Made by a program: the position numbers and the translations under genes. The notes beneath the pieces are model-generated. The model searched no databases, was not told where the DNA came from, and worked only from the letters and a program-made list of their open reading frames with translations. A stretch of DNA of 22,886 nucleotides from a virus, in IMG/VR virus record IMGVR_UViG_3300035698_026989, positions 1-22,886 of that record; one strand, 5' to 3'. Shown one piece after another: positions 1 through 22,886 of the stretch (positions within the stretch are counted from its first letter, which is position 1; each line of letters starts with the position of its first letter).

Positions 1-2
1 AA

Positions 3-542
3 CAAAAGCCTATTAATAAGATTAAGATCGCTAATCTTTTAGTACGATGTAACATAAAGTTTTCCGAAAGAAAGGGTAACTTTAATTTTAATTGTAGGTT
101 GATGCACTCTTACTTTTCACAGTTTGGTAAACAGCATTTAAGATACATACCTAAAGACATTAAGTCTCTGTCGCCACGTTATCTTAAGATTTTATTAGAT
201 TGGTTAGTTCTCGGTGATGGATATAAGAATAATAATAATATTGGGTATTATTCAACGTCTAAAAGATTGGTGGATGATATACAAGAAATTGTGATTAAAC
301 TTGGCCTTAGTGCTAATATTACTGAAAAAAAACAATCGGTTTCCATGATAAGAGGGCGTGTAGTTAAGCCAACAAAGATTTTATATGATTTGTTGATTAG
401 AACATCTTGCTTCAAGCGTCTATCTTCCAGTAAGAAAAACTACATAAGTAAAGAAAGTTATATAGGGAAAGTTTATTGCGTGTCCGTTCCCTCTGGAGTT
501 ATAAAAGTTAGAAGAAACGGAAAAGAATGTTGGTCAGGGAAT
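3..542 (+). other. C-terminal part of a LAGLIDADG-type intein inside TerL
   Basis: The 180 residues before Ser 543 are not terminase. They contain a DOD homing-endonuclease helix (LLDWLVLGDG) followed by a region typical of such enzymes (YYSTSKRLVDDIQEIV), then intein block F-like (YCVSVPSGVIKVRRNGK) and block G-like (CWSGN, then S). Asn at 540-542 is the expected cyclising residue and Ser at 543-545 the +1 nucleophile. The penultimate residue is Gly, not the usual His. The first endonuclease motif and the N-terminal splice blocks lie outside the window. The insertion sits between the two ATPase motifs, just before GSNPRG. Confidence 0.85.
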
Positions 543-1538: not shown

Positions 1539-1558
1539 TAACATATTGCTTGACATTG
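1539..1558 (+). repeat. 20-bp promoter-associated repeat, copy 1
   Basis: TAACATATTGCTTGACATTG. The identical 20 bases occur on the minus strand at 16707-16726. In both places the block carries the -35 hexamer of a strong promoter and about 11 bases upstream of it. The spacer and -10 sequences differ, so the shared part is the -35 side only. Confidence 0.9.
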
Positions 1559-1578
1559 CTAACTATGCATGCTATAAT
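1550..1578 (+). promoter_or_regulatory. Perfect consensus sigma70 promoter with extended -10
   Basis: TTGACA at 1550-1555, a 17-bp spacer and TATAAT at 1573-1578, with TG at 1570-1571 making an extended -10. It lies between the terL stop and the small gene at 1621, so the transcript would start near 1585 and could run on into the portal gene. The -35 lies inside a 20-bp block repeated at 16707-16726. Confidence 0.85.
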
Positions 1579-1620
1579 AATAATAGATAAAGAAGTTAGG
1601 CAGTGAATCAAGGATCTAAA

Positions 1621-7298: not shown

Positions 7299-8276
7299 AT
7301 GAACAATACAATACTTCAACAAGGACGCTTTACTTCAGATGGTCTTCTAAAACGTCTGAATATTCGTTCTGATGTTGATTGGATAATGGTTTATAACTAC
7401 ACCCAAGCTGCAACTCAGCAAGGTGTAGGCCGTGGTGTTAAGTTTTACTGGCAGCGTGGTTTTCTTGATGGTTCTGCATTAGAATATAAAAAAGATGATG
7501 GTGTTGATACGCTTGAGATGGTTGGCGTTGAGACTGGCGGTTTTTCGTTAGTTGACTTAACCGCTAGCCCAGTTGGCGATATTGATGCAACTATTACAGC
7601 TATATCGAATGCTGCTCCCCCTGTTGTAACAATAACTGCTACTACAGCGTTATCTGATGGTGATGTTGTTAGATTGATTAATGTTGCGGGAGCTCAACAA
7701 CTCGGTGGATATGAGTTCACTATTGATGTCTTAAACGCAACTACTTTCGAGCTAGCATATATGGCTGCTATTGTTGCTGGTACAAATGGTTCATTTAGAC
7801 CTATTAAATACAATCCAATTTATTACCCACGTCGTCGTTTTGTTTCTAAAATTACACAAGCGGCTTCTGCAGTAATAACAATGACGGTAACTCATGGGTT
7901 TACTGTAGGACAAAAAGTTCGTCTTATTGTCCCAAGTGCATTTGGAATGACTGAAATGGATGGCTTAACTGCAACCATTACAGCTGTTTCGACTGATCTT
8001 GCAGCTAATACTAACTATATTACTGTTGATGTTGATTCAACTGCGTTTACCGCTTTTGCCTTCCCATTAACAGCCGATGTACCATTCTCACCAGCATTGG
8101 TGGTTCCTCTTGGAGAAGCTGCTGAAGCAAGTTATGCTAACTTACTTGATGATGCAACAAGAAACGAGAGTTACATTGGAATGGAATTAGCTGCTGGCGC
8201 TCAGTCACCAGGTGGTTCTTCTGATGATGTAATATATTGGACCGCTGGTAAGTCTTTTAGTGTTGACAACGAATAA
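7299..8276 (+). CDS. Virion structural protein, paralogue 1 (325 aa)
   Basis: A 325-aa beta-rich protein directly after the capsid gene, and one of a tandem pair with the next gene. The N-terminal part (GRFTSDG, SDVDWIMVYNYTQAA, GRGVKFYWQRG) is shared with its neighbour. It then carries two copies of a beta module of the form x-GDxVRLIN...LGGYEFTIDVLNATTFEL (about residues 95-155) and HGFTVGQKVRLIVPS...ITVDVDSTAF (about 190-245), a pattern familiar from phage virion and tail proteins. A decoration, capsid-lining or tail role is inferred from position. GGAGG at 7288-7292 lies inside the end of the capsid gene, so translation is probably coupled. No enzyme motif was seen. Confidence 0.75.
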   Translation: MNNTILQQGRFTSDGLLKRLNIRSDVDWIMVYNYTQAATQQGVGRGVKFYWQRGFLDGSALEYKKDDGVDTLEMVGVETGGFSLVDLTASPVGDIDATITAISNAAPPVVTITATTALSDGDVVRLINVAGAQQLGGYEFTIDVLNATTFELAYMAAIVAGTNGSFRPIKYNPIYYPRRRFVSKITQAASAVITMTVTHGFTVGQKVRLIVPSAFGMTEMDGLTATITAVSTDLAANTNYITVDVDSTAFTAFAFPLTADVPFSPALVVPLGEAAEASYANLLDDATRNESYIGMELAAGAQSPGGSSDDVIYWTAGKSFSVDNE

Positions 8277-15301: not shown

Positions 15302-16462
15302 ATGATACAAGTATTACCAAATCGTAGATCAGTCTCTGGTGATCTTGGCGCTGGCTTAGGGTCTGGTCTTGGTTCTGGACTCCAAGCTCTTGCTCAACAG
15401 CAAATAGAAACCATGCTAGAGCAACGCAAACAACAACAAGCTTCTACCGGGCTACAAGCTCTTGGTTTTTCTCCCGAAGAATCATCACAATTAGCTCAAT
15501 TACCACCACAAGCTTTGCAAGAAATTATTAAATACAAAGCTCAAGAGCCATCTCGTCAAGCATATGCACAATCAATTTCTGAAATTCTTGGCATGCCAGC
15601 AGAAGCTGTGCCAGGTGTACCAGAACCAGGAGCCCTAGCACCAGAGATACCTGCTCCAGGTGTACCTATTCCAGGTATCGCAGAACCAGTTGAAGAAGTT
15701 GGACAAGAAGTAATAGCAAAAAAAGCTATTAAACAAGATAGAAGAAATATTCTAGCTGGTCTTACAGAAAAGCAAGCAACTGAATTAGCTAAACTTAAAC
15801 TCCAAAAAGAAGCCCTATCTACTGCAGAAAGAAAAGAATTACGTAAAGAAAATATACAACGCGAGCGAGACGTGAAAAAAGAAACGCTTCCTATATATAA
15901 AGAAGTTAAAGATGAAGCGAAAGACGCAAGAGATAATATGAAGCGGCTTAAAAGAATGAGAGAATTAGCCTTAACGGGAAAACTTGGATCTCCTCTTTTT
16001 AATTCTCTTGCAAAATCACCACTTGTAACAAAGATTTTAGATCTTGGAGCTTTAAGAACAGCTGACGCACAAGAATTTGAGAAACTAAGTTCTGAATTTG
16101 TTAAAGGCGCAAAGAGCATTTTTGGAAGTAGAATCACCGATAATGCTTTAAAGGTGTTTATGAAAATGGTTCCAACGCTTTCTCAATCTTGTGAAGGAAT
16201 GACAAGGCTTATCGACCATCTTATGGAAGCAAACGAAGCAAGTCTTATAAGAGATAGAGCAATGAGTGATATCATTAAGAAATATAAGAAGCGACCAGAA
16301 AATCTTCAACAATTGATAGAGGAAGTTACTGAACCAGAAATTAATGAATTAGCACAGAAATTTAAAGCCCGTATGGAAGATGCTAAAGAGATGTTTGCTA
16401 TGAGCGGAAAAGAAATTCCAACTGGTGCAAAATTTGCTCAAGCAATTGGTGCTACTTATTAA
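15302..16462 (+). CDS. Helical probable internal / ejection-type virion protein (386 aa)
   Basis: The ATG at 15302 has GGGAG at 15291-15295 and lies one base after the previous stop; a longer in-frame start at 15254 would overlap the upstream gene and lacks support. Order: a Gly-rich start (GDLGAGLGSGLGSGLQAL), a Gln-rich helix, a Pro/Ala-rich linker (about residues 100-130), a long charged helical region (about 140-215), and a conserved-looking part at about 260-320 with EFVKGAKSIFGSRITDNALKVF and MVPTLSQSCEGM, which recurs in phage hypotheticals. It probably travels inside the virion with the preceding gene's product. Its last 11 bases overlap the convergent minus-strand gene at 16452. Function inferred from composition and place. 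Confidence 0.7.
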   Translation: MIQVLPNRRSVSGDLGAGLGSGLGSGLQALAQQQIETMLEQRKQQQASTGLQALGFSPEESSQLAQLPPQALQEIIKYKAQEPSRQAYAQSISEILGMPAEAVPGVPEPGALAPEIPAPGVPIPGIAEPVEEVGQEVIAKKAIKQDRRNILAGLTEKQATELAKLKLQKEALSTAERKELRKENIQRERDVKKETLPIYKEVKDEAKDARDNMKRLKRMRELALTGKLGSPLFNSLAKSPLVTKILDLGALRTADAQEFEKLSSEFVKGAKSIFGSRITDNALKVFMKMVPTLSQSCEGMTRLIDHLMEANEASLIRDRAMSDIIKKYKKRPENLQQLIEEVTEPEINELAQKFKARMEDAKEMFAMSGKEIPTGAKFAQAIGATY

Positions 16463-16631
16463 GAATGTTTTCTTTAACCGCTTCTTTTACAGAAGATTTA
16501 ACAATTGAACTAAGTAACATTATTGGAATAATGATTGGTGCTAATGCTATGCATACTAAGAGTGCCAATCCTATTCCGCAGAAAAGTCCACCAAAAAGAC
16601 AGGTAAGAAAAGTTTCGATTGCTGCAAACAT
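16452..16631 (-). CDS. 59-aa membrane protein, holin-like
   Basis: Minus-strand gene with ATG at 16631 and AGGAG (complement of 16637-16641) 5 bases upstream. The sequence starts MFAAIETFLTCLFGGLFCGI, continues hydrophobic to about residue 45 (LALLVCIALAPIIIPIMLL) and ends in a short charged tail (KSSVKEAVKENILNK). One long or two short TM helices with a charged cytoplasmic tail is the shape of small holins and of phage-encoded membrane toxins or exclusion proteins; nothing more specific can be claimed. It has its own near-consensus promoter (16687-16715) and overlaps the 3' end of the convergent 386-aa gene. The opposite-strand frame at 16465-16704 is the shadow. Confidence 0.7.
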   Translation of the reverse strand: MFAAIETFLTCLFGGLFCGIGLALLVCIALAPIIIPIMLLSSIVKSSVKEAVKENILNK

Positions 16632-16686
16632 GAACGCTCCTGCGTGTTTTATTTATTATAACTTTCTATATTCTTTATCTATTAAT

Positions 16687-16715
16687 AGTATAACACTAGT
16701 ATAATACAATGTCAA
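16687..16715 (-). promoter_or_regulatory. Near-consensus sigma70 promoter of the 59-aa gene
   Basis: On the minus strand: TTGACA (complement of 16710-16715), a 17-bp spacer and TATACT (complement of 16687-16692). It gives a start near 16680, about 50 bases before the ATG at 16631. The upstream side is very AT-rich and carries the 20-bp block also found at 1539-1558. Confidence 0.8.
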
Positions 16716-16726
16716 GCAATATGTTA
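16707..16726 (-). repeat. 20-bp promoter-associated repeat, copy 2
   Basis: Read on the minus strand this is identical to 1539-1558 (TAACATATTGCTTGACATTG). It holds the -35 of the promoter for the 59-aa membrane protein. Confidence 0.9.
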
Positions 16727-17157: not shown

Positions 17158-17173
17158 ATGTACAAATGTACAT
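17158..17173. promoter_or_regulatory. Operator-like palindrome at the regulator start
   Basis: ATGTACA, two bases, TGTACAT: a perfect 7-bp inverted repeat adjoining the start codon (17155-17157, minus strand) and covering the likely -10. Size and position fit a binding site for the ribbon-helix-helix protein encoded right next to it. Confidence 0.7.
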
Positions 17174-20867: not shown

Positions 20868-22033
20868 TGTCGAGTATTTCTGCATTATCCGGTATTACTA
20901 CATTAACAGGTAATATTGGAGGAGCTGTTATTTCAGATGGTTCTGGCAATATTTCTGTAATAGGTTCAAATGTTATCTCTATTACGGGTACTCCGGCATC
21001 AAATCAATTAGATGTATCGTTAACAAATGGTACAGATGGTCAAGTATTAATTGGTGGTGGAACTATTCCTACATGGACTAATATATTATCAGCAGGTGGA
21101 ACTGTTGCTATTACTAACAGCGCTAACTCAATTAATATTGAAACTGCTGGAAGTGTTCCAGCACAATTTGATGAAGACGTTGGTAGTGCTGTCCCAGCTT
21201 TAGGTGTCTTGAATGTAGTTGGTGGAACAAACCTAAATACAAGTGGTGCCGGTAATACGGTTACCATTAACTTAGATACAGATATTACATTTCCCGATGG
21301 TGGCTCGGCACAGACTGGTATTGTTGCTGGTGAGATATTCTATCTTAAAGCCTATGATGTTGGTGGCGCTGCATATGAAACGTTTATAACGTTAACTGCT
21401 GACGCGGCAACACCGACCTGTAACTTAAGTGATTCGGTAACTAAGGCCGGAAATTATATCTATCGAGCTTCTGGAACAGATGTTCGTGTTGTTGATGGTG
21501 GAACGGGACTCTCAACCCTTACTGATCATGGTGTTCTTCTTGGCTCTGGAACAGCTGCAATTACACCGACAGCTGCTGGAACTAATGGACAAGTATTACT
21601 TGGATCGACTGGAGCTGACCCAGCATTTGGAGATCTTGCTTCTGCAGGGGGAACAATAACATTTACTCCTGGTGCAGGAACGCTCAATCTTGAAACGAGC
21701 GGCGCTGTAACAGCATCGTTTGCAGAAGATGTTGGTAGTGCTACGCCTGCTTTAGGGGTAATTACTATTGCTGGTGGTACTAATATTGCTACGAGTGGTG
21801 CAGGTTCTACCGTTACCATTAATTTTGATGGAACTCTTTCTGTAGCTCGTGGTGGTACCGGAGCTACAACGTTAGCTGATCATGGCATGTTGGTTGGCTC
21901 TGGAGTTAATGCAATTACTCCATTAGTAGTTGGTACTAATGGCCAAGTCATAGTAGGTTCTACTGGAGCTGATCCTATATTTGCTACGATGGCTTCTGCT
22001 GGAAGTACAATAGCTTATACTTTGGGCGCGTGA
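20867..22033 (+). CDS. Repeat-built tail fibre, interrupted by TGA (388 aa)
   Basis: Starts in TAATG overlap with the previous gene, AAGGGGG at 20855-20861. Residues 1-145 form a leader with one degenerate repeat-like unit (DGQVLIGGGTIP, FDEDVGSAVPALGVL). Residues about 146-207 are a different domain (GEIFYLKAYDVGGAAYETFI, NLSDSVTKAGNYIYRASG). Then come 118-residue units opening with GGTG..TL.DHG, a motif widespread in phage fibres. Translation ends at TGA 22031-22033 inside the second unit, yet the same frame stays open to the window end with two more units. All other units have GGA (Gly) at this codon. So this is probably a nonsense mutation, a sequence error or a read-through fibre; the real gene runs past the window. 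Confidence 0.75.
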   Translation: MSSISALSGITTLTGNIGGAVISDGSGNISVIGSNVISITGTPASNQLDVSLTNGTDGQVLIGGGTIPTWTNILSAGGTVAITNSANSINIETAGSVPAQFDEDVGSAVPALGVLNVVGGTNLNTSGAGNTVTINLDTDITFPDGGSAQTGIVAGEIFYLKAYDVGGAAYETFITLTADAATPTCNLSDSVTKAGNYIYRASGTDVRVVDGGTGLSTLTDHGVLLGSGTAAITPTAAGTNGQVLLGSTGADPAFGDLASAGGTITFTPGAGTLNLETSGAVTASFAEDVGSATPALGVITIAGGTNIATSGAGSTVTINFDGTLSVARGGTGATTLADHGMLVGSGVNAITPLVVGTNGQVIVGSTGADPIFATMASAGSTIAYTLGA

Positions 22034-22886
22034 ACTCTTAACTTAGAAACTGGTGGAGCAGTAGCTACTTCCGCACCAACAGATGCTGGAACGGCTACAC
22101 CTGCAGTTGGAGCTTTGACCGTTGCTGGTGGTACTAATATTGCTACAGCAGGTGCTGGTTCTACGGTAACAGTAAACTTCGATGGTACATTACCAGTAGC
22201 TAGTGGTGGAACTGGAGCAATCACATTAACAGATCATGGGGTTGTTGTTGGTTCTGGAGTTAATGCAGTTACTCCAATTGCAGTCGGAACAGATGGGCAA
22301 GTTATAGTAGGCTCGACTGGAGCTGATCCTGTATTTGCAACATTAGCTTCTGCTGGTGGTACTGTTACATTTACTCCTGGGGCTGGAACGCTTAATCTTG
22401 AAGCAGTATCTTCAGGAACAACATCATTTGCAGAAGATGTCGGTACAGCCGCACCTGCTGCAGGCGTTATAACTATTGCTGGTGGAACCAATATTGCTAC
22501 ATCTGGCGCTGGTTCAACCGCGACTATTAACTTTGATGGCACATTGCCTGTAGCTAGTGGTGGAACCGGAGCAGTCACATTAACAGATCATGGGGTTGTT
22601 GTTGGTTCTGGAGTTAATGCAGTTACTCCAATTGCAGTCGGAACAGATGGCCAAGTTATAGTAGGCTCGACTGGAGCTGATCCAGTGTTTGCAACAGTAG
22701 CTTCTGCTAGAAGTACCATTGCATTTACGCTTGGTGCTGGAACATTAAATCTAGAAACTGGTGGCGCAGTAGCAATTTCAGCTCCTAGTGACGCTGGAAC
22801 GGCAACGCCTTCAGTTGGTGCTTTAACATTTGCTGGTGGTACTAATATTGCTACCGCAGGTGCTGGTTCTACAATAACTATCAACT
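21497..22886 (+). repeat. Four tandem 354-bp fibre repeats in A-B-A-B order
   Basis: Units at 21497-21850, 21851-22204, 22205-22558 and 22559 to the window end (partial). The GATCATGG landmark recurs exactly every 354 bases (21524, 21878, 22232, 22586). Units 1 and 3 share TPGAGTLNLE and SFAEDVG; units 2 and 4 share LETGGAVA and a DAGTATP segment, so the true period is a two-unit module of 708 bp. Confidence 0.9.
22034..22886 (+). pseudogene. Continuation of the repeat fibre beyond the in-frame TGA, cut by window edge
   Basis: 284 codons without a stop, in the same frame as the fibre gene, beginning TLNLETGGAVATSAPTDAGT. It finishes the second 118-residue unit and holds the third and most of the fourth. 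No in-frame ATG with a binding site restarts translation soon after the stop, so it is not a separate gene. Whether it is expressed depends on the status of the TGA. Confidence 0.7.

Follow-up and report, generated by a model that had tools for sequence, protein, structure and literature searches.

Two promoters of an uncultured phage are probably paralogous copies of one module beside small accessory genes

P22-like phages carry the ant moron just before the tailspike gene, and the motif TTGC-N6-TTGC/T is given for the same phages (PMC2629481). In Cluster O mycobacteriophages, regulatory repeats are palindromes found at more than 30 sites, many of which are not at promoters (PMC4351075). Here we analyzed a complete IMG/VR record of 22,886 bp (the window), probably a genome fragment, in which two distant promoters, W1 and W2, share conserved blocks. 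We put at roughly 0.75 the probability that W1 and W2 are paralogues derived from a single promoter module, copied with or beside small accessory (moron) genes. The clade that carries the module comprises P22-portal podophage-like viruses.

The 20-mer TAACATATTGCTTGACATTG, which spans an upstream block and the -35 element, occurs exactly twice in the window, at 1539-1558 on the plus strand (W1) and at 16707-16726 on the minus strand (W2), as a preliminary description had stated; the mean count in shuffled sequence is 0.01. No further copy with up to three mismatches exists in the whole window and no exact copy elsewhere in the genome contig or viral contig collections. No copy lies away from a promoter. 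The preliminary description also held that the match does not derive from one long duplication, which is unsupported since ungapped homology spans 97 bp: 70/97 positions are identical between 1508-1604 on the plus strand and 16757-16661 on the minus strand. The upstream flank is identical at 20/31 positions (shuffled mean 10.2; P about 0.0002). The argument from differing spacers fails, as the 10-bp inner spacer (2/10 identical) is the sole part of the module at chance level and the perfectly matching block TAGATAAAGAA had been overlooked. A run of 20 identical bases is improbable if the 70/97 identity is spread evenly (P = 0.015), which indicates that conservation clusters on the promoter elements. 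By alignment, W1 and W2 are to be read as a diverged duplication with conserved blocks, not as unrelated promoters sharing one block.

Both sites have the -35 element, a 17-bp spacer (within the usual 16-18 bp), the TATAAT-type -10 and the TGn of sigma70-type extended -10 promoters. The W1 core, TTGACA-17-TATAAT with a TGC extension, lies at 1550-1578 on the plus strand (-10 at 1573-1578) and matches the consensus at 12/12 positions; the W2 core, TTGACA-17-TATACT with a TGT extension, lies at 16687-16715 on the minus strand (-10 at 16692-16687) and matches at 11/12, in agreement with the elements and the 17-bp distance described before. W1 and W2 are the top two promoter-like sites of the window; across 1.1 Mb of related phage DNA, they and the corresponding site of the related record L003 take the first three ranks. 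TAGATAAAGAA begins five bases after TGnTATA[AC]T, at 1584-1594 (plus strand) in W1 and at 16671-16681 (minus strand) in W2, and stands out as an invariant 11-bp element at the predicted transcription start. These features support the view that W1 and W2 are genuine sigma70-type promoters: host RNA polymerase carrying the main sigma factor would recognize TTGACA-17-TGnTATAAT, and transcription would begin within TAGATAAAGAA, at about 1584-1586 for W1 and 16681-16679 for W2. Transcription itself from the two sites is what we infer from this architecture. Further downstream, TGTG(C/G)TATTCTTGC is conserved upstream of the portal gene at 1880-1890 of the window and at about 2145-2157 of L003 and is possibly another extended -10 promoter; by eye, it was not seen in more distant relatives.

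Relatives were collected by searches with the portal protein, which yielded L003 (88%) and L004 (70%), and with the capsid protein, whose roughly 600 matching contigs were reduced to a set of 80. The left end of the window overlaps the record G001, composed of L075 and L215, along 641 bp (91% nucleotide identity). G001 contains a close relative's early region, and in its late genes the match to the window is about 66-74%. When 46 related records were searched for TTGAC-N15-TGNTATAMT-N5-TAGATAAAGAA with up to three mismatches, five copies were found in three records (two in the window, two in G001 and one in L003), all with zero mismatch, and none in the other 43. The module is known from these three records only, all of them incomplete genomes, and its family consensus is TTGAC[AT]-N14-TGnTATA[AC]T-N5-TAGATAAAGAA. 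Looser matches to TATAMT-N5-TAGATAAAGAA occur in at least 119 viral contig stretches, among which a TGCATGC spacer is shared only by L075 (part of G001) and L003; as the 11-mer runs into a Shine-Dalgarno sequence in many of the best promoter-like matches, we do not regard it as a feature of phages in general.

All five copies have the -35/-10 core and the 11-mer at the predicted start in common, and in all ten pairwise comparisons the 11-mer is identical and the -10 region matches at 7-9 of 9 positions. From promoter through spacer, W1 and L003 are 89% identical over 46 bp. Upstream of the -35, W1 and W2 agree at 11/11 bases, as against 2-5/11, the level of chance, in all other pairs. These outer bases thus do not belong to the promoter family in general; they point to recent common ancestry, to a phage-specific operator or to both. 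This weakens the earlier claim of a shared regulator site, since L003 and G001 have not kept the outer half of the 20-mer in their orthologous promoters; being common only to W1 and W2, this half does not demand a common regulator.

Recent duplication without any regulator could account for such a pattern, if W2 arose by copying of a different promoter within its genome and the 20-mer is simply what has not yet diverged. The 97-bp ungapped homology with its above-chance upstream flank fits this account, as does the exact identity of W2 from the -10 through the 11-mer with G001 copy b (TATACTATTAATAGATAAAGAAT), as would be expected had W2 derived from a version of that promoter in its own phage. 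The early leftward promoter of the window phage would then carry TAACATATTGCTTGACATTG with TATACTATTAATAGATAAAGAA. The improbable 20-bp run speaks against it, and the conserved blocks coincide with promoter elements, so that some sequence selection is likely. We hold duplication alone to be possible, at somewhat less than even odds.

The bases around the -35 allow a different account, in which a phage regulator binds direct pentamers that are spaced 10 bp apart on one helix face and straddle the -35, and thereby controls both promoters. The candidate operators are ATTGC-TTGAC-ATTGC at 1545-1559 on the plus strand (W1), with a third TTGT half-site at 1536, and ATTGC-TTGAC-ATTGT at 16706-16720 on the minus strand (W2), both repeating in a 10-bp step. 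Two such direct-repeat sites are present in the window against 0.15 expected, and a 5/5 repeat match is rare in the relatives' DNA (5/1498 TTGAC sites, 0.3%). G001 copy b has TTGTC-TTGAC-TTGTC and is the leading promoter of a leftward operon that comprises ORF76b, a 68-aa ORF and ERF, opposite a small divergent gene weakly similar to 434 Cro. L003 has six [CT]TAC units in 10-bp steps and in the same register; its tandem 10-bp repeats (GTTACCACGA and variants) at 1491-1544 run into the promoter -35. Moreover, the bases right after the -35 are the same between the two copies of a phage and different across phages. In this account the half-site would differ between phages as immunity specificities do. 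On the other hand, the 10-bp lag was picked after inspection of the data, W1 and W2 are not independent, and G001 copy a, which sits between the RusA-like/189-aa genes and terL, is free of the repeat (1/5).

The regulator in this account is hypothetical. G001 encodes two HTH proteins (L075, 2272-2607 and 2911-3144). The RHH (Arc-like, phrog_582) protein encoded at 17157-16990 in the window was considered and rejected: the palindrome TGTACAAATGTACA precedes its own start codon, and TGTACA, its likely operator, is absent at W1 and W2. TGTACAAATGTACA lies at 17159-17172, directly before the RHH gene, is conserved in G001 (L215, about 7715-7730) and is likely to be an autoregulatory operator of the gene, which has no evident Shine-Dalgarno sequence. 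The regulator site over the -35 that was proposed earlier is plausible in view of the 10-bp direct repeat around TTGAC, but unproven. We give slightly less than an even chance to control of both promoters in this way, and likewise to the statement that the repeats flanking the -35 are a phage-specific operator through which one regulator acts on the copies of one phage. A broader scheme, in which a regulator acting through these repeats coordinates all early, late and accessory copies of a mobile module and half-site specificity switches between phages while the 11-mer stays fixed, appears unlikely.

Promoters activated by a lambda-CII-like protein have TTGC-N6-TTGC/T straddling the -35, and the literal motif is present as TTGC-TTGACA-TTGC at 1546-1559 and as TTGC-TTGACA-TTGT at W2. 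It is absent from G001 copy a and L003, and chance alone predicts 7.2 TTGY-N6-TTGY pairs in the window, where 8 are present. CII promoters have a poor -35 that needs an activator, but the -35 here is the full consensus TTGACA, for which we rejected membership in the lambda CII class. None of 19 related records gave a match to Phage_CII (PF05269), the window being without an early arm. CII-type activation is therefore very improbable.

An ORF76-family gene at 1621-1833 on the plus strand, encoding 70 aa from an ATG with an AAGGA Shine-Dalgarno sequence, follows W1, and a 59-aa hydrophobic ORF with an AGGAG Shine-Dalgarno sequence, at 16452-16631 on the minus strand, follows W2. Four of the five promoter copies lie directly upstream of an ORF76-family gene, the fifth (W2) being the one before the 59-aa membrane ORF. 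The family is confined to the same three promoter-bearing records. Searches of the viral collection gave nothing beyond G001 and L003, no Pfam or PHROG family matched, and phage and plasmid records gave no match. The 70-aa protein (pI 4.2) is modeled confidently as three helices (pLDDT 89), for which a structure search returned no convincing match; a 220-aa paralogue gave a poorly folded model. Because the same promoter and leader are repeatedly linked to the family, a role of ORF76 in autoregulation or host takeover is possible, although this is speculation. An intrinsic terminator follows ORF76a in G001; in the window, neither ORF76 nor the 59-aa ORF showed one immediately behind it, and there was no Rfam match in the window or seven loci.

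Both promoters lie at moron-type insertions. The terL-portal interval, which harbors W1, is a variable insertion site with a gap of 266 to 2942 bp and unrelated small ORFs in nearly every relative, the gap of L157 having no ORF. W2 and the 59-aa ORF reside in an insertion of ~290 bp that separates the e402 gene from the zinc-finger gene. G001 has neither W2 nor the 59-aa ORF at this junction, its e402 counterpart ending only 6 bp away from the zinc-finger gene. Genes are thus present or absent at the same junction, as in morons, and the promoter of their own is recognized by sequence. W1 would express the ORF76 protein between terL and portal, and W2 the membrane protein between the ejection and fibre genes, both independently of the late operon; these are the two genes named in the preliminary description. 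Against the module reading, no ORF76 gene stands behind W2 and the W2 spacer has diverged. If correct, it illustrates a way in which accessory genes may spread within a phage genome, each carrying a copy of one promoter, and offers a candidate regulon that can be tested in a phage group that is uncultured and apparently widespread.

Several other features of these genomes were noted. A LAGLIDADG homing-endonuclease domain inside terL (window 1-540; 91% nucleotide identity with G001) is probably an intein, and 354-bp repeats lie within fibre-like genes at 21496-22884, to the end of the record. In L004 (8058-8882) and in several Chlamydiota genomes (L228, L231, L233 and L234), roughly 0.7 to 1.1 kb of DNA interrupts the capsid gene, and these loci gave no Rfam intron match. 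Of 234 genomes in the phylum to which the Simkaniaceae bin G046 belongs, 8 encode the capsid protein (L203 and L227-L236 being capsid relatives), and an all-species scan gave five capsid matches, two of which are named Simkaniaceae and Parachlamydiaceae. Chlamydiota are likely hosts of this large uncultured group by capsid relationship, which for the window phage itself would be a lead only.

Compared with known systems, the tetranucleotide direct repeats, which lie on either side of the -35 at a 10-bp distance, resemble those of lambda CII-dependent promoters, but here the -35 is consensus and the -10 extended, the half-sites change between phages, and no CII family protein was found. As in mycobacteriophages (Cluster O, PMC4351075; stoperators, PMC9283540), short conserved regulatory repeats occupy several places in the genome; in contrast to Cluster O, the copies here are few and all at promoters. 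There is also a likeness to the morons of P22-like and lambdoid phages (for example the ant moron, PMC2629481), small independently expressed genes at variable sites in the late operon; an Arc/RHH repressor is encoded before the tailspike of P22, and likewise before the fibre gene of the window. Unlike in those phages, one promoter family is found here at separate sites, including an early leftward position in G001.
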